Assembly: GCF_026341515.1 (NCBI RefSeq)
Contig: NZ_JAPEOK010000001.1
Coordinates: forward strand, 806,001 to 870,000
From: Streptomyces sp. NBC_00878
GTDB taxonomy: Bacteria; Actinomycetota; Actinomycetes; Streptomycetales; Streptomycetaceae
Length of the DNA: 64,000 bases
Reading direction: 5' to 3'
The position numbers and the translations under genes are program-made. Below the pieces are notes generated by a model that worked only from the letters and a program-made list of their open reading frames with translations, searched no databases and had not been told where the DNA came from. Of the stretch, positions 7,872-52,292 are shown piece after piece (the stretch's first letter is position 1; the number at the start of each line of letters is the position of its first letter).

Positions 7872-8354
7872 TCAGAGAGCGCGGTGCATGACGTGCAGGC
7901 CCACTCTGCCGTGGGTCGGGTGGTCGTAGGCGTCCGGGATCGTGCCCAGGATCGTGAAGCCCAGGGACGTCCACAGTTTCACCGCGGGGTTGGTTTCGAC
8001 CACCGCGTTGAAGACCATCGCTCGGTAGCCGTCGGCCTTGGCCGTTTCCAGGATGTGGTTGGCGAGGGCTCGGCCGATGCCCTGGCCCGAGCGGTCCGGG
8101 TCGACCATGAAGGCGGCGTTGGCGATGCGGGCGGCGGGGCCGCCGTAGTTGGGGGTGACGTAGGCGGAGCCGACCACGGCTCCCGTGGCGTCCTCGGCCA
8201 CGTACACCCGCTTGCCCCGGGCCATCCACAGGGCGCGGGCGTCCTCTTCGGAGGTGTCCGGGTCCCAGGTGTAGGTCTCGGCGGCGGCGACGATGCGGTG
8301 CCAGAAAGGCCAGATCCGCGGCCAGTCGTCGGCCGCGGCTTCTCTGATCAGCAT
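7872..8354 (-). CDS. GNAT family N-acetyltransferase
   Basis: 160-aa acetyl-CoA-dependent acetyltransferase. The GNAT fold is clear: MLIREAAADDWPRI at the start, the acetyl-CoA loop RSGQGIGRALANHIL in motif A, and NPAVKLWTSLGF near the C-terminus, closest to the phosphinothricin/ribosomal-protein acetyltransferase type. The start ATG has no clear ribosome-binding site and lies inside an 18-bp perfect hairpin (8344-8386). A longer frame runs upstream to 8597 but overlaps the well-supported 57-aa gene and is rejected. It is 62 bp downstream of that small gene on the same strand, so the two may be co-transcribed. Substrate unknown. Confidence 0.85.
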   Translation of the reverse strand: MLIREAAADDWPRIWPFWHRIVAAAETYTWDPDTSEEDARALWMARGKRVYVAEDATGAVVGSAYVTPNYGGPAARIANAAFMVDPDRSGQGIGRALANHILETAKADGYRAMVFNAVVETNPAVKLWTSLGFTILGTIPDAYDHPTHGRVGLHVMHRAL

Positions 8355-8386
8355 GGGCGTGAGTCTGGCACGCCCATGCTGATCAG
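8344..8386 (-). promoter_or_regulatory. 18-bp perfect inverted repeat covering the GNAT start codon
   Basis: Arms CTGATCAGCATGGGCGTG and CACGCCCATGCTGATCAG are exact complements separated by 7 bp. In the transcript the GNAT start codon is in the 3' arm, so a folded stem would hide it. The 5' arm contains another ATG that opens a 9-codon frame whose TGA stop overlaps the GNAT ATG region. It could be a translational attenuator, a terminator for the upstream small gene, or a protein-binding site. Confidence 0.7.
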
Positions 8387-8416
8387 CGATCGCGAGGGTG
8401 CTGGTGGACCTGGCGG

Positions 8417-8590
8417 TCAGTCCACGCTGGGCAGGATGTGGGGCTCGGCGAGGTCGTCCTCGTAGCCCGCCAGACGGATGGGGGCGGACCTGGCCCACAC
8501 CTCGAGGCTGCCGAGCTCGTCGGGCCGGCGGCTCCCGCCCTCCGTAGGTTCCTTGGGGCGCTTCTCGCGATTCGTCGTCTCTGGTGTCAC
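8417..8590 (-). CDS. small acidic-tailed protein of unknown function, 57 aa
   Basis: I do not recognise this family. A GTG start has AAGGAG 6 bp upstream (8598-8603), which is strong support for translation. The first 25 residues are polar and charged (Glu, Lys, Arg, Pro, Thr), then LGSLEVWARSAPIRLAGYED and an acidic end DLAEPHILPSVD. No signal peptide, Cys or membrane segment. A short polar leader with a compact acidic C-terminus is the general form of some peptide precursors, but no maturation enzyme other than the adjacent GNAT is nearby, so that is only a suggestion. The gene is followed by the 18-bp hairpin and the GNAT gene. Confidence 0.7.
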   Translation of the reverse strand: MTPETTNREKRPKEPTEGGSRRPDELGSLEVWARSAPIRLAGYEDDLAEPHILPSVD

Positions 8591-8982
8591 CGCGCACTCC
8601 TTATGTGTCGGTCACCCGCGGGGCGTGCAGGACCACTCTGCTGTCGGTCGCCTGACTCCCGCTCGGGTCTGAATAGAGGCACTTCGGACGCGGTGGCGCC
8701 AGTCAACTCATATGAGAGCAGGCCGTGGTGAACCGGCTTGTCCCGGGACGGACCGTGGGTGTGGGTGGGACCCAAATAGGCTGTCCGTCGCGTACAGGGT
8801 AACCAAATGAGCGGGCGCCCGCTCGATGGGGCCGAAAACAAGGTGTAACCATCTGAAGTCTTTGGGGTCCGTTCGGCCGCCGGTCGGGCGAGTTTCACCC
8901 GGTTGTCCACAGGCGCGGATACACCCGACTGGCCCTGTGCCAACATGATCGACGTCCCATTGTCCACGCGAAGGAGCCCGAC
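8591..8982. other. 392-bp divergent intergenic region
   Basis: Separates the 57-aa gene (left) from the alcohol dehydrogenase gene (right), so it should hold both promoters. It contains a 16-bp perfect palindrome GAGCGGGCGCCCGCTC (8809-8824) and two TTGTCCAC octamers (8903-8910 and 8960-8967), the first matching the DnaA-box form TTGTCCACA. No further gene seen. Confidence 0.5.
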
Positions 8983-10071
8983 ATGGCCGCCCAGCAGGTA
9001 CGCGGTGTCATCGCCCCCGGCAAGAACGAGCCGGTGCAGATCCGGACCATTCTCATCCCGGACCCGGGTCCCGGCGAGGCCGTGGTGCAAGTGCAGGCCT
9101 GCGGGGTCTGCCACACCGACCTGCACTACAAGCAGGGCGGCATCAGCGACGACTACCCCTTCCTCCTCGGCCACGAGGCGGCCGGTGTGGTGGAAGCGGT
9201 CGGCGAGGGCGTCACCGACGTGGCACCCGGCGACTTCGTCGTCCTCAACTGGCGTGCGGTGTGCGGCCAGTGCCGCGCCTGTCTGCGCGGCCGCCCCTGG
9301 TACTGCTTCAACACGCACAACGCCAAGCAGAAGATGACCCTGGAGGACGGCACGGAGCTCTCCCCCGCCCTGGGCATCGGCGCCTTCGCCGAGAAGACCC
9401 TGGTCGCCGCCGGCCAGTGCACCAAGGTCGACCCGTCCGTGTCCCCCGCGGTCGCGGGCCTGCTCGGCTGCGGCGTGATGGCCGGCATCGGCGCGGCCAT
9501 CAACACCGGCAACGTGGGCCGTGGCGACTCGGTGGCCGTCATCGGCTGCGGGGGCGTCGGAGACGCGGCCATCGCCGGCGCGAACCTCGCCGGCGCCGCG
9601 CGGATCATCGCGGTCGACATCGACGACCGGAAGCTGGAGAAGGCCCGCACGATGGGCGCCACCCACACGGTCAACTCCAAGGAGACGGACCCCGTCGAGG
9701 CGATCCGCGAGCTGACCGGCGGCCATGGCGCCGATGTCGTCATCGAGGCCGTCGGCCGCCCCGAGACGTACAAGCAGGCGTTCTACGCCCGGGATCTCGC
9801 GGGCACGGTGGTCCTGGTCGGTGTGCCGACACCGGAGATGAAGCTGGAGCTGCCGCTGCTGGACGTCTTCGGCCGCGGCGGCGCGCTCAAGTCGTCCTGG
9901 TACGGCGACTGTCTTCCCTCGCGCGACTTCCCGATGCTGATCGACCTCCACCAGCAGGGACGCCTGGACCTGGCGGCCTTCGTGACCGAGACGATCGAGC
10001 TGGACGCGGTGGAGCAGGCCTTCGACCGCATGCACCAGGGCGACGTACTGCGCTCGGTGGTGATGCTGTGA
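8983..10071 (+). CDS. mscR: S-(hydroxymethyl)mycothiol dehydrogenase
   Basis: Zinc-dependent class III type alcohol dehydrogenase, 362 aa, that oxidises the formaldehyde-mycothiol adduct with NAD; cytoplasmic detoxification. Catalytic zinc ligands Cys43 (GVCHTD) and His65-Glu66 (GHEAAG); structural zinc Cys94, Cys97, Cys100, Cys108 ([15 protein letters not shown]); NAD motif [13 protein letters not shown] around residue 185. AAGGAG lies 6 bp before the ATG. The stop overlaps the start of a metallo-beta-lactamase gene, the partner commonly found beside mycothiol-dependent formaldehyde dehydrogenase. A general NAD-dependent alcohol dehydrogenase is the alternative, but the pairing and sequence favour the mycothiol enzyme. 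Confidence 0.9.
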
Positions 10072-45908: not shown

Positions 45909-46268
45909 GGAAGGTCCCGATTCGTCATAGGGGGTGCTCTTGTTCGCCGCACCCCGAGGGGGCGGTGAAGGGCGGGGAGCTCGAAGCCGCCGCGTCGAGG
46001 CCTCGGACGTGATCGATGCCGGGTACGACGTGGCTGTATCGGCGGGCCTGATCAGTCGAGTGCGACAGACCCTCCGAGTGACTCCGTTCCGATTATCGGA
46101 GTCGTGCTACTATTTATCGGTAGGGGCAAGTGTGAGACCGTCGGCCGACCGCGTCAACCAGGTCCATGCAATCCGTTGTCAACACGGTCGTAACCGATCC
46201 CCTGGATGGGCTTCGGCGGAGGCCGCCGGATACGGGCGCGCCATGGCGCGGTGGACGAGGGGGTCGCA
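45909..46268. other. 360-bp divergent intergenic region
   Basis: Between the membrane-protein gene and the IclR gene. Holds the CCGATTATCGG operator and TACTAT -10 described below. From 46114 to 46268 is an untranslated leader of about 150 bp. No additional gene seen. Confidence 0.5.
46088..46113 (+). promoter_or_regulatory. IclR promoter with TCCGATTATCGGA operator and TACTAT -10
   Basis: Palindrome TCCGAT-T-ATCGGA (46088-46100), with an overlapping GACTCCG ... CGGAGTC pair, followed by TACTAT at 46108-46113. The same arrangement occurs at 47211-47238 before the homogentisate operon. Confidence 0.75.
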
Positions 46269-47003
46269 TTGCCCGAGATTTCGAAGACCGCGGATCAGGC
46301 GCTCGCGCTGCTGCTGAGCATCGGCGAGGACGGTCCGGACACAGCGGCCGCACTGGCTGATCGGCTCGGGATGCACCGCACGGTTGCCCACCGGCTCCTG
46401 GCCACCTTGGAGGGGCGCGGCTTCGTGCGCCGCGGGCACGGGGGTTACGAGCTAGGCATGGTGCTGCGGCGCCTGGCGGCCGACGTGGAACCGGAGCTGC
46501 TGCAGGTGGCGCGTCCGATCATGGAAGAGCTGAGCCAAGTCACCGGGGAAGCCACGGTGCTCAGCGTCCTTGAGGGGAAAGACCTGGTCACGGCCGAGTT
46601 GGTACCTGGCACACGTCACCTGGTGCGCGTCACCCTGGACCCGGGTTACCGGCATCCGCTGCACGTGGGCGCGGCCGGCCGCGCGATCCTGGCCCACCTG
46701 CCGGATCGGATTCGCCGGGCGGCCGCCGATTCCAGCCCAACGCCCGAGGCGCTCCAGGCGCAACTGGAGGAGATCCGCCGGGCAGGCTACGCATACTCCC
46801 ACGACGAGTTGCAGGAGGGGGTGAGCGGTATCGCCGTCCCGGTCTTCCAGGGAGGCACCGTCAGCGCCGGCCTGAGTCTGGTGGTTCCCATCAGCCGGGA
46901 CACGGATCTGAAGTCGTGGCTGGGCGAGATCGTCGGGGCGGCCACCCGAATGAGCGACGCGCTGGAGGCGGCGCGCGAGAACGCCGAAGGGCAAGGCGCA
47001 TGA
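46269..47003 (+). CDS. IclR family regulator of homogentisate operon
   Basis: 244-aa regulator. N-terminal winged helix (residues about 8-65: ALALLLSIGEDGPDTAAALADRLGMHRTVAHRLLATLEGRGFV) and C-terminal IclR effector domain (VTLDPGYRHPLHVGAAGRAILA, EGVSGIAVPVF). TTG start chosen because GAGGGGG lies 5 bp upstream; GTG at 46251 is the alternative and lacks one. It lies 495 bp upstream of the homogentisate genes on the same strand and shares their operator, so it is probably the pathway-specific regulator; the ligand may be homogentisate or a related acid (inference). Confidence 0.9.
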   Translation: MPEISKTADQALALLLSIGEDGPDTAAALADRLGMHRTVAHRLLATLEGRGFVRRGHGGYELGMVLRRLAADVEPELLQVARPIMEELSQVTGEATVLSVLEGKDLVTAELVPGTRHLVRVTLDPGYRHPLHVGAAGRAILAHLPDRIRRAAADSSPTPEALQAQLEEIRRAGYAYSHDELQEGVSGIAVPVFQGGTVSAGLSLVVPISRDTDLKSWLGEIVGAATRMSDALEAARENAEGQGA

Positions 47004-47498: not shown

Positions 47499-48716
47499 AT
47501 GGCTTTCTACCGCCGCACCGGAGACATCCCGCGCAAGCGGCACACCCAGCACCGCCGCCCCGATGGCGGCCTGTACTACGAGGAACTGGTCGGGGAGGAA
47601 GGTTTCTCCACCGACTCCTCGCTGCTCTACCACCACCACATCCCCTCGGCGATCACTGGCAGCAGGTCCTGGGAAATCCCGGGCCTGACCACGCTCTCCA
47701 ACCACCCCCTCAAACCCCGCCACCTGCGGACGCACCGGCTCTTCCCCGGCGAGGAGTACAAGACACACGACGTGGTCACCGGGCGGCGACTCCTGCTGGC
47801 CAACGAGGACGTGCGCATCTCCTACGTGATGGCCGGCGGCCCGTCGCCGCTGTACCGCAACGCCGTCGGCGACGAGTGCGTGTACGTGGAGAGCGGCAGC
47901 GCCCGTGTGGAGACCACGTTCGGCACCCTGGACGTCAGCCGTGGTGACTACGTCGTCGTGCCGCGGGCCACCACGCACCGCTGGCTGCCCACCGGAACCG
48001 AGCCACTGCGCGCCTACTGCATCGAGGCCAACAGTCACATCGCGCCGCCGAAGCGATACCTGTCCAGGTACGGGCAGTTGCTGGAGCACTCCCCGTACTG
48101 CGAGCGGGACCTGCGCGGCCCCGACGGGCCACTGGTCGTCCCCGACGACGGCGAGGCCGATGTCCACGTCAAGCATCGTGGATCCGGCGCGAGCGGCATT
48201 GTCGGAAGCGTCCTCACCAGTTCCCGGCATCCGTTCGACGTAGTGGGATGGGACGGCTGCCTGTACCCGTACGCCTTCAATGTCGCGGACTTCGAGCCGA
48301 TAACCGGCCGGATTCACCAACCCCCGCCGGCCCACCAGGTCTTCGAGGGCCAGGGCTTCGTCATCTGCAACTTCGTACCGCGCAAGGTCGACTACCACCC
48401 GCTGTCGATCCCGGTTCCCTACCACCACTCCAACGTGGACTCCGATGAGGTGATGTTCTACTGCGGCGGGGACTACGAGGCCCGCAAGGGAACAGGGATC
48501 GGGCAGGGCTCTGTCTCGCTCCACCCGGGCGGGCTCCCGCACGGGCCGCAGCCGGGCGCCATGGAACGCAGCATCGGAATGGAGTTCTTCGACGAGCTGG
48601 CCGTCATGGTCGACACCTTCCGGCCGCTGAGGCTGGGCGAGGCCGCAGCCGCCTGCGAGGATCCCGGATACGCCTGGTCCTGGAGCGGCCGCGGCCCCGA
48701 TGGTGAACAGCGATGA
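47499..48716 (+). CDS. hmgA: homogentisate 1,2-dioxygenase
   Basis: 405-aa non-haem Fe(II) ring-cleaving enzyme of tyrosine/phenylalanine breakdown, converting homogentisate to maleylacetoacetate. Cupin-fold protein with the iron region PYHHSNVDSDEVMFYCGGDY (His309/310, Glu317) and LHPGGLPHGPQPGAME (His348). ATG preceded by AAGGA 7 bp upstream. The stop overlaps the start of the next gene by 4 bp (ATGA). First gene of a three-gene operon behind the IclR-type operator. Confidence 0.92.
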   Translation: MAFYRRTGDIPRKRHTQHRRPDGGLYYEELVGEEGFSTDSSLLYHHHIPSAITGSRSWEIPGLTTLSNHPLKPRHLRTHRLFPGEEYKTHDVVTGRRLLLANEDVRISYVMAGGPSPLYRNAVGDECVYVESGSARVETTFGTLDVSRGDYVVVPRATTHRWLPTGTEPLRAYCIEANSHIAPPKRYLSRYGQLLEHSPYCERDLRGPDGPLVVPDDGEADVHVKHRGSGASGIVGSVLTSSRHPFDVVGWDGCLYPYAFNVADFEPITGRIHQPPPAHQVFEGQGFVICNFVPRKVDYHPLSIPVPYHHSNVDSDEVMFYCGGDYEARKGTGIGQGSVSLHPGGLPHGPQPGAMERSIGMEFFDELAVMVDTFRPLRLGEAAAACEDPGYAWSWSGRGPDGEQR

Positions 48717-49588
48717 CGACGCATGCGGCTGCCTCCCCGCTGTTCAGCGCACTCGTGGACGATGCCGGACTGTTCCCGCCCGAGGCCCTCACCATGACCG
48801 CGGCGACAACCCGGCATCGCCGGGACAGTGCGGCGGCGCACCCCCTGCTGACCCACCGGTTCTTGTGCACGACCGGGCAGCTGCCCGAACTGCTCGCCGC
48901 CCTCGGCCCCGAGGACCGTTTCCGCCTCGGGCTGATCACGCAGCTGGACACGTCCACCGTCCCAAGCACGCCGGCACTTACAGCCGCCGACCCCCGCATC
49001 GAACTCGCGGCGGTCGAGGGACCGCTGCCGCCCGGGCCCGATCCCGTCGCGGCGGCACGGCAGGCGCTTGCCGCGCTGGGGGGCCTACCGGAGCACGTGC
49101 CGGGGTATGTCGAGATACCGCTCACCGGGGACCGTCCCACCATGACGTCCGTGCTCCACGTGCTCACCGAGGGCGGGCGAGGGGCGAAAGTTCGCTGTGG
49201 CGGCCTGCGAGCGGAGCTCTTTCCGAGCTGCGGACAGCTGGCGGCATTCGTACATGCCTGTGTGAGGGGCGGCGTCCCGTTCAAGGCGACCGCCGGACTG
49301 CACCATGCGGTCCGCCACCGCGACGAACGCACCGGCTTCACCCACCACGGATTTCTCAACCTGCTCCTCGCGGTGTGCCGCGCCGTCGACGGTGGCACCG
49401 CGCACGACGTGATGGCGGTGCTGGGCACTGTCGATGCCGAATCGCTCGCGGACGAGGCGCGCCACGTGCCCCGGCACACCGCGGTCGCGGCCCGGGCGCT
49501 GTTCACCGCGTACGGCTCATGCAGCACCAGCGAGCCGCTCGAAGACCTGCAGGCCCTTGGTCTGGACGCGAAGGAGACCACCGTATGA
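48713..49588 (+). CDS. conserved protein of unknown function in homogentisate operon
   Basis: 291 aa, not recognised as a named enzyme. The order of alternating strands and helices fits a TIM-barrel-like fold. Blocks that look conserved: FSALVDDAGLFPP (11-23), GYVEIPL (131-137), AKVRCGGLRAELFPS (158-172) and VPFKATAGLHHAVRH (188-202, with Lys191, His197, His198) followed by GFTHHGFLNLLLA. No thioredoxin or DinB domain, so it is not a usual glutathione- or mycothiol-dependent isomerase. Start overlaps hmgA and stop overlaps the fumarylacetoacetase gene by 4 bp each, so all three are coupled. By position it may isomerise or process maleylacetoacetate (inference). Confidence 0.85.
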   Translation: MTTHAAASPLFSALVDDAGLFPPEALTMTAATTRHRRDSAAAHPLLTHRFLCTTGQLPELLAALGPEDRFRLGLITQLDTSTVPSTPALTAADPRIELAAVEGPLPPGPDPVAAARQALAALGGLPEHVPGYVEIPLTGDRPTMTSVLHVLTEGGRGAKVRCGGLRAELFPSCGQLAAFVHACVRGGVPFKATAGLHHAVRHRDERTGFTHHGFLNLLLAVCRAVDGGTAHDVMAVLGTVDAESLADEARHVPRHTAVAARALFTAYGSCSTSEPLEDLQALGLDAKETTV

Positions 49589-51527: not shown

Positions 51528-52292
51528 ATGCCGGTCCGGATCGAACGCCAGGAACACGTCACCACCGTCGTCCTCTCCCGTCCCGAGGTCCGCAACGCGG
51601 TGGACGGGCCCACGGCGGCCGACCTCGCGGACGCGTTCCGCGCGTTCGAGAACGACGAGACGGCCCGGGTGGCGGTGCTGTGGGGCGAGGGCGGCACGTT
51701 CTGCGCGGGCGCGGACCTCAAGGCGCTCGGCACGGAACGCGGCAACCATGTCACGGAGGACGGCGACGGCCCGATGGGCCCCACCCGGATACGGCTGTCG
51801 AAGCCCGTGATCGCCGCGGTCGCGGGCCATGCCGTGGCGGGTGGTCTGGAACTGGCCCTCTGGTGCGATCTGCGGGTCGCCGAGGAGGACGCGGTCTTCG
51901 GCGTCTTCTGCCGCCGCTGGGGCGTGCCTCTCATCGACGGCGGCACGGTACGACTCCCCCGCCTCATCGGCACCAGCCGAGCGATGGACATGATCCTGAC
52001 CGGCCGCCCGGTGACGGCCCCGGAGGCGTACGAGATGGGCCTCGCGAACCGGGTCGTCCCGCCGGGGCGGGCGCGCGCGGAGGCGGAGGCGCTGGCCGCG
52101 GAGATCGCCCGGTTCCCGCAGGCCTGCCTCCGGGGCGACCGCGGTTCCGTCCTCGACCAGGAGGGTCTGACCGAGCGCGCCGCCATGCGGGGTGAGTTCC
52201 GGCACGGGACGAGCGTGTTGGAGGAGAGCCTGGAGGGGGTGGCGCGGTTCTCGGCGGGGGCGGGGCGGCACGGGTCGTTCGGCGAGATCTGA
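51528..52292 (+). CDS. enoyl-CoA hydratase/isomerase family protein
   Basis: 254-aa crotonase-fold enzyme. LSRPEVRNAVDGPTAADL, the oxyanion-hole GGTFCAGADLKAL, AVAGHAVAGGLELALWCDLRV and GVPLIDGGTVRLPRLIG. The catalytic Glu of hydratases (usually in E-x-GL-x-GD) appears as WGVPLIDGG here, lacking one Glu, so an isomerase or other crotonase reaction is possible. ATG with AAGGGG about 8 bp upstream. Monocistronic. Confidence 0.88.
   Translation: MPVRIERQEHVTTVVLSRPEVRNAVDGPTAADLADAFRAFENDETARVAVLWGEGGTFCAGADLKALGTERGNHVTEDGDGPMGPTRIRLSKPVIAAVAGHAVAGGLELALWCDLRVAEEDAVFGVFCRRWGVPLIDGGTVRLPRLIGTSRAMDMILTGRPVTAPEAYEMGLANRVVPPGRARAEAEALAAEIARFPQACLRGDRGSVLDQEGLTERAAMRGEFRHGTSVLEESLEGVARFSAGAGRHGSFGEI

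Follow-up and report, generated by a model that had tools for sequence, protein, structure and literature searches.

The homogentisate route is a common way of breaking down tyrosine and phenylalanine, and the isomerase that acts on maleylacetoacetate in this route is known as a glutathione enzyme, the zeta-class glutathione S-transferase (GST) MaiA (TIGR01262). In Sphingobium RAC03 the maiA gene lies directly 3′ of fahA, the gene for fumarylacetoacetase. For Bacillus anthracis the literature states that no gene for a maleylacetoacetate isomerase can be identified (PMC4457819), and for Bacillus thuringiensis that genes for the isomerisation cannot be directly identified (PMC6193087). The gentisate pathway of actinobacteria has an analogous cis-trans step, for which PMC6498646 names the mycothiol-dependent maleylpyruvate isomerase MDMPI (PF11716). 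The stretch of DNA analysed here (the window) comprises 64,000 nucleotides of Streptomyces sp. NBC_00878 (contig NZ_JAPEOK010000001.1, positions 806,001 to 870,000), whose genome measures 11.1 Mb. It carries an operon in which a gene for a conserved uncharacterised protein, here called UNK, is placed between genes for a divergent homogentisate 1,2-dioxygenase (HmgA) and fumarylacetoacetase (FahA). Judged from its genomic context and predicted fold, UNK stands about an even chance of being the maleylacetoacetate isomerase of this operon, as a non-homologous replacement of glutathione-dependent MaiA.

Linkage of UNK to homogentisate breakdown

An earlier note on this DNA had described a 291-residue reading frame coupled to both enzyme genes by 4-bp overlaps, and the gene proved to be real, with an ATG start. 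This start shares the sequence ATGA (48713-48716) with the stop of the upstream dioxygenase gene, and the UNK stop shares a second ATGA (49585-49588) with the fahA start. A contig scan with UNK gave 221 places encoding relatives, and the best 80 of these were analysed as loci. The closest named relatives among the 80 are from Lentzea indica (70% identity) and Streptomyces scopuliridis (69%). fahA lies directly 3′ of UNK in 67 of the 80 loci (66 by script; in L006 the genes abut, and the strict test was failed), an hmgA match is likewise present in 67, and neither gene is found in nine. A restriction of UNK to loci with the divergent type of HmgA was considered and dropped; a distantly matching HmgA also lies upstream of UNK in L134.

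Among 72,556 plasmid records, 119 encode FahA, and every one of the 24 UNK-bearing records also encodes FahA. They include a Priestia megaterium record with the order hppD-UNK-fahA-hisC-hmgA (one of six Priestia records read), further records from Rhodococcus, Pseudonocardia, Streptomyces and Tsukamurella, and a plasmid of the cyanobacterium Kovacikia that carries UNK-fahA, with hppD and hmgA on the opposite strand. UNK neighbours fahA, then, in bacteria of three phyla (Actinomycetota, Bacillota via Priestia, and one cyanobacterium). In 296 genomes of the host's phylum, UNK was matched in 20, FahA above cut-off in 35 and both in 17, and the two genes are adjacent in 16 of these 17 (the exception is G302). 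Where UNK occurs without FahA above cut-off, G326 has an adjacent FahA of 359 bits and G296 has an UNK fragment at a contig end, with HmgA on the same contig; the weak match in G063, a genome without HmgA and without FahA above cut-off, is probably due to chance.

A denser sample of 100 genomes was taken from the family of Actinophytocola xanthii (genome G380, locus L018). UNK is present in all 100, and 93 of them have FahA genes scoring 300 bits or more, 106 in all. UNK lies upstream of 93 of these 106 genes, on the same strand and within 2 kb, with a median gap of 33 bp. Overall, the UNK family very probably belongs to homogentisate breakdown.

The statement of the earlier note that the operon lacks a standard isomerase gene is upheld: the host genome has no MaiA match (TIGR01262, E ≤ 0.001), and its 17 MDMPI_N matches all fall outside the window, the genes of which were scanned in part, DinB_2 not being searched for. 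Co-occurrence of UNK with a regular MaiA, which the same note had named as an outcome that would refute its proposal, was not seen either. MaiA was above cut-off in none of 43 FahA- or UNK-bearing genomes (20 of them UNK-matching), three of which gave weak matches of 58 bits at most. In a second test of 48 genomes or records, from which L091 was left out as too large, it was above cut-off in none of 40 UNK genomes and in none of seven UNK plasmid records, while the positive-control Sphingobium record scored 260.6 bits. The tested actinobacteria lack MaiA anyway, and its absence is therefore not by itself evidence for UNK. In the plasmid collection, 13 of the 88 FahA records listed (of 119) are among the 60 MaiA records listed (of 231), and UNK is in none of those 60. 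Moreover, the fahA region of a Rhizobium record (L160) has no annotated maiA, and this record is not among the 24 with UNK, so that an isomerase gene is not a constant neighbour of fahA. Inspection of the genes next to fahA and hmgA in eleven genomes (twelve stretches, L121, L122 and L124-L133) revealed no recognisable replacement isomerase, as far as crude gene calls and Pfam scans of three proteins reach; of these genomes G302 alone has UNK, elsewhere. In Streptomyces humicola (L016:8882-9724) a lone UNK adjoins an MDMPI_N gene, and the 16.9 kb retrieved contain neither hmgA nor fahA.

Conserved residues, predicted fold and candidate mechanism

The earlier note had held that a strong match to a family of other known function would refute its proposal, and sequence searches with UNK returned none. 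No curated family was matched in Pfam (E ≤ 1) or NCBIfam, and searches of the PDB by sequence and by profile gave chance matches only. At E ≤ 1 the matches included no GST family (TIGR01262 among them) in Pfam and NCBIfam, and neither PF11716 nor any DinB family in Pfam; for 39 members of the UNK family, no aldolase family was found in Pfam at E ≤ 0.1. Weak Pfam matches in these members to CbiZ (nine members, best 0.0051), HRCT1 and BCA_ABC_TP_C (one each) were set aside as chance. No paper naming the UNK gene was found in the open PMC literature, subscription papers being outside the search.

Alignment of the 39 members showed D16, D17, F21-P23 (F21, P22 and P23 in UNK), E134, K159, R161, G163, G164, F170, P171, T193, L196, H197, A199, G208, F209, H211-G213, L215, N216, G227, L237, R261 and P275 to be invariant, with K191 kept in 38 of the 39 relatives. 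The conserved blocks picked out in the earlier note from the sequence alone are thereby largely borne out (D16, D17, F21, P22, P23, T193, H197 and K191); its His198 is not conserved. In a 27-row alignment that includes one Bacillota and one cyanobacterial member, the invariant residues are D16, F21-P23, E134, K159, R161, G163, G164, P171, T193, L196, H197, G213, L215, N216 and P275. The conserved lysine columns of this alignment are solely 159 (27/27) and 191 (26/27), and UNK of the window contains three lysines altogether. No cysteine is conserved throughout the family. The UNK copy of Streptomyces violaceus (L011) looks disturbed, because its match is split and stretched (8001-9145 for residues 2-291) and the FahA match is incomplete, ending at residue 339 of 399.

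Twelve orphan UNK copies, lying away from hmgA and fahA, allow the conserved residues to be divided further. K159, R161, D16, E102, E134, H212 and N216 are kept in all twelve. K191, T193 and H197 are lost jointly in the same six, and all 69 copies whose locus includes hmgA or fahA keep them. Three of the six degenerate orphans are in genomes without FahA of at least 300 bits (G435, G465, G487), two share their genome with a further UNK that adjoins FahA (G443, G472), and for one (G403) the genome has a single FahA, located elsewhere. Orphan copies in the Actinophytocola family lie beside a prephenate dehydratase gene (PF00800) in L168, L171, L174 and L175, and such copies may serve the metabolism of aromatic amino acids in some second role. 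An IclR-type gene adjoins the orphan in L165 and L170. A paralogue of Amycolatopsis type is followed by an IclR gene in L059, L062, L064, L067, L068, L070-L072, L075, L081 and L083, and G268 and C270 are both Ala in 11 of 11 such copies. These fahA-less copies were considered as a counter-example to the linkage and set aside. All 11 genomes have FahA, and a second UNK is directly beside FahA in seven of the nine Amycolatopsis-type genomes for which the best FahA place was fetched; no UNK is beside the fetched FahA in L154 (G361) and L156 (G360), and each of these two genomes has a further FahA gene, which was not fetched.

Two confident models give beta/alpha barrels, and their best solved matches are deoxyribose-5-phosphate aldolase (DERA, deoC). 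Where the earlier note had envisaged an isomerase of new fold, a pathway role is well supported and an isomerase would be the best of the options it listed, but the predicted fold is an ordinary barrel nearest to DERA. K159 and K191 of UNK lie on predicted strands 6 and 7, E102 on strand 4 and an Asp on strand 1, as do their counterparts in DERA, the match being made by strand count in the two models and not by residue superposition. The DERA counterparts K167, K201 and D102 are invariant in eight DERAs. UNK differs from DERA in being 32 residues longer than the Escherichia coli enzyme (291 versus 259) and in its context of aromatic breakdown rather than nucleoside salvage. With MaiA it would share the proposed reaction, and it shares the fahA neighbour seen in Sphingobium RAC03; it differs in matching no GST family, in its predicted barrel and in occurring in genomes and records that, where tested, have no MaiA above cut-off. 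MDMPI differs too, UNK having no Pfam match to it, a predicted barrel and no invariant cysteine.

The conservation, the pathway linkage, the MaiA absence, the predicted fold and the strand positions of the lysines are computed results; from them we infer what UNK would catalyse, its Schiff base and the part assigned below to each residue. Schiff-base chemistry is the best reading of the mechanism. The ketone adjoining the cis double bond would condense with Lys159 to a Schiff base, and the resulting iminium/enamine would lower the order of this bond, which could then rotate. Hydrolysis would free fumarylacetoacetate for the co-translated FahA. Lys191 may lower the pKa of Lys159, a role that Lys201 has in DERA; Arg161 is the candidate ligand of a carboxylate, and proton transfer would fall to His197, possibly together with His212. 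We know of no natural precedent for iminium-assisted double-bond rotation in the homogentisate pathway. Engineered DERAs bind conjugated aldehydes as Schiff bases, according to the titles of entries 9fd8 and 9fd9. A new, thiol-free family of DERA-like barrels that isomerises maleylacetoacetate through a lysine Schiff base, and has taken the place of MaiA in Priestia and many Actinomycetota as well as in at least one cyanobacterium, is a tentative proposal, with somewhat less than an even chance.

Isomerase or another role in the pathway

A number of observations weigh against the reading of UNK as a Schiff-base isomerase. In addition to the strand-count basis of the lysine match, Foldseek searches against the PDB and against viral models returned nothing at E ≤ 0.001. 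At the level of sequence a descent of UNK from DERA is not supported: comparison with six DERAs by hhalign stayed short of significance (matches over 13 columns with P 0.14, the best, and 0.19), and global-mode alignment with eight DERAs gave nothing usable. The motif KTSTG is invariant in the eight DERAs, whereas UNK has KVRCGG and its family KxRxGG. The histidines are not uniformly kept: H211 is replaced by Q in six of the seven fahA-adjacent Amycolatopsis-type copies, and the Kovacikia protein has Q at the H212 position. The other six of the twelve orphans keep K159, K191, T193 and H197 with no hmgA or fahA nearby, and for four of these residue-keeping copies the genome lacks a full FahA (G414, G461, G429 and G441, the last two with partial FahA matches only). 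In the family sample, 44 of 137 UNK matches have no FahA beside them, and seven of the 100 genomes have UNK and no FahA of at least 300 bits. The cyanobacterium is expected to make glutathione, and the Kovacikia plasmid gave five sub-threshold GST-type (MaiA) matches, the best of 87 bits; for all seven UNK plasmid records MaiA was searched on the plasmid, the chromosome not being covered.

The distribution of UNK bears in the same direction. Of 61 host-genus genomes, 58 have no match to UNK as a single-sequence query, and 18 of the 35 FahA-bearing actinobacterial genomes match neither UNK nor MaiA, including all 11 other host-genus members of the 296-genome sample. The route therefore presumably runs without UNK in these bacteria, through an MDMPI-type enzyme, chemically, or with the cis isomer as a substrate of FahA. 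Away from UNK, the host genome encodes a second FahA (G000:C1:6371609-6372832, minus strand, 402.7 bits) and a second, distant HmgA match (G000:C1:8745908-8746762, minus strand, 55 bits), probably of canonical type, and the host may on this account run two homogentisate pathways. The earlier note presumed that the operon must supply a gene for the isomerisation; this argument is accordingly weaker than had been assumed. Rhodococcus ruber grows on homogentisate, and the excerpt describing its cluster names hmgA and hmgB and no isomerase (PMC6498646; the genome was not searched for UNK). For R. globerulus, HmgA and HmgB are reported from the proteome (PMC11889516).

These data lend some weight to a pathway with no dedicated isomerase, in which maleylacetoacetate isomerises non-enzymatically, with mycothiol or via MDMPI-type enzymes in trans, or in which FahA takes the cis isomer, and UNK is auxiliary, for example clearing a by-product or assisting FahA. 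Any of the 17 MDMPI-type genes of the host, as sequence matches, could isomerise maleylacetoacetate in trans, the UNK of L016 adjoins such a gene, and human GSTZ1 deficiency is termed clinically insignificant in an excerpt of PMC11457941. We nevertheless regard this explanation as unlikely, though it deserves to be taken seriously: UNK is tightly coupled to fahA in three phyla and takes a position like that of maiA in a proteobacterial operon, which would exceed the usual pattern of an auxiliary gene. UNK might instead hydrolyse the cis isomer straight to maleate and acetoacetate, or handle maleate after FahA has cleaved that isomer. A maleylacetoacetate hydrolase in some Bacillus species is mentioned in PMC4457819, citing Crawford 1976, and the B. 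thuringiensis operon is given in PMC6193087 as hppD, fahA and hmgA with no isomerase gene found. Such a role appears improbable, because FahA, itself of a hydrolase family, is beside UNK in 93 of 137 matches and would make a second hydrolase redundant, and two lysines on barrel strands would fit imine chemistry better than hydrolysis. The lysine pair and the DERA-like fold would equally suit Schiff-base chemistry on a beta-keto acid, and acetoacetate is a product of FahA; UNK could thus be an acetoacetate decarboxylase, or an aldolase using acetoacetate or fumarate. This we consider very improbable, given that UNK precedes fahA where the two are coupled and that two UNK regions (L085, L088) contain CoA-transferase genes, one of them also an acetyl-CoA acetyltransferase gene, which suits conversion of acetoacetate to acetyl-CoA.

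The operon and its implications

The features of the operon are collected in the table below. The dioxygenase gene passes both Pfam HgmA cut-offs but reaches 52.4 bits against TIGR01015, below the cut-off of 510.75 bits; its product shares 27% identity with that of an annotated Sphingobium hmgA, and the HxN..E and HGP motifs of the two align. The downstream gene is above the fumarylacetoacetase cut-off of 375.3 bits. Loci L004, L005 and L006 likewise have the IclR gene upstream of the operon, with 71-73% identity; in L005 the distance is 3.3 kb.

Features of the homogentisate operon in the window (all coordinates are window positions)
Feature	Position	Strand	Evidence
IclR-family regulator	46206..47003	+	Pfam IclR_C 4.8e-26, HTH_IclR 5.6e-11; start in relatives about 14 residues later
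Divergent homogentisate 1,2-dioxygenase, 405 aa	47499..48716	+	HgmA_N and HgmA_C above Pfam cut-offs
UNK, conserved uncharacterised protein, 291 aa, predicted beta/alpha barrel, candidate maleylacetoacetate isomerase	48713..49588	+	
Lys159 codon of UNK, predicted strand 6 (157-161), candidate Schiff-base lysine	49187..49189	+	39/39 and 27/27 relatives; 12/12 orphan paralogues
Lys191 codon of UNK, predicted strand 7 (190-193)	49283..49285	+	38/39 and 26/27 relatives; lost in 6/12 orphan paralogues
His197 codon of UNK, loop after strand 7	49301..49303	+	39/39 and 27/27 relatives; lost in the same 6/12 orphans as Lys191
fahA, fumarylacetoacetase, 399 aa	49585..50784	+	TIGR01266 468.7 bits; FAA_hydrolase 2.3e-37

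An enoyl-CoA hydratase gene is present at 51528-52292 of the window, 3′ of the operon beyond one opposite-strand reading frame; an ech gene is also listed in the excerpt on the Rhodococcus ruber homogentisate cluster (PMC6498646). Elsewhere, a gene of the metallo-beta-lactamase fold and a ring-hydroxylase-type FAD monooxygenase gene lie near UNK in L123 and L085, a metallo-beta-lactamase-fold gene is directly 3′ of hmgA in L132 (15674-16675), and the hmgA match at G256:C1:2894777-2895997 holds one in-frame TGA.

The Bacillus operons are described without a further gene, and UNK would therefore not by itself solve the cases of B. anthracis and B. thuringiensis. As a candidate isomerase the UNK family is concrete and clonable, for Gram-positive bacteria and for one cyanobacterium. 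If the proposal is true, it would supply the gene for a step of Gram-positive homogentisate breakdown for which none had been found, and would give a name to proteins that are labelled hypothetical in plasmid records.
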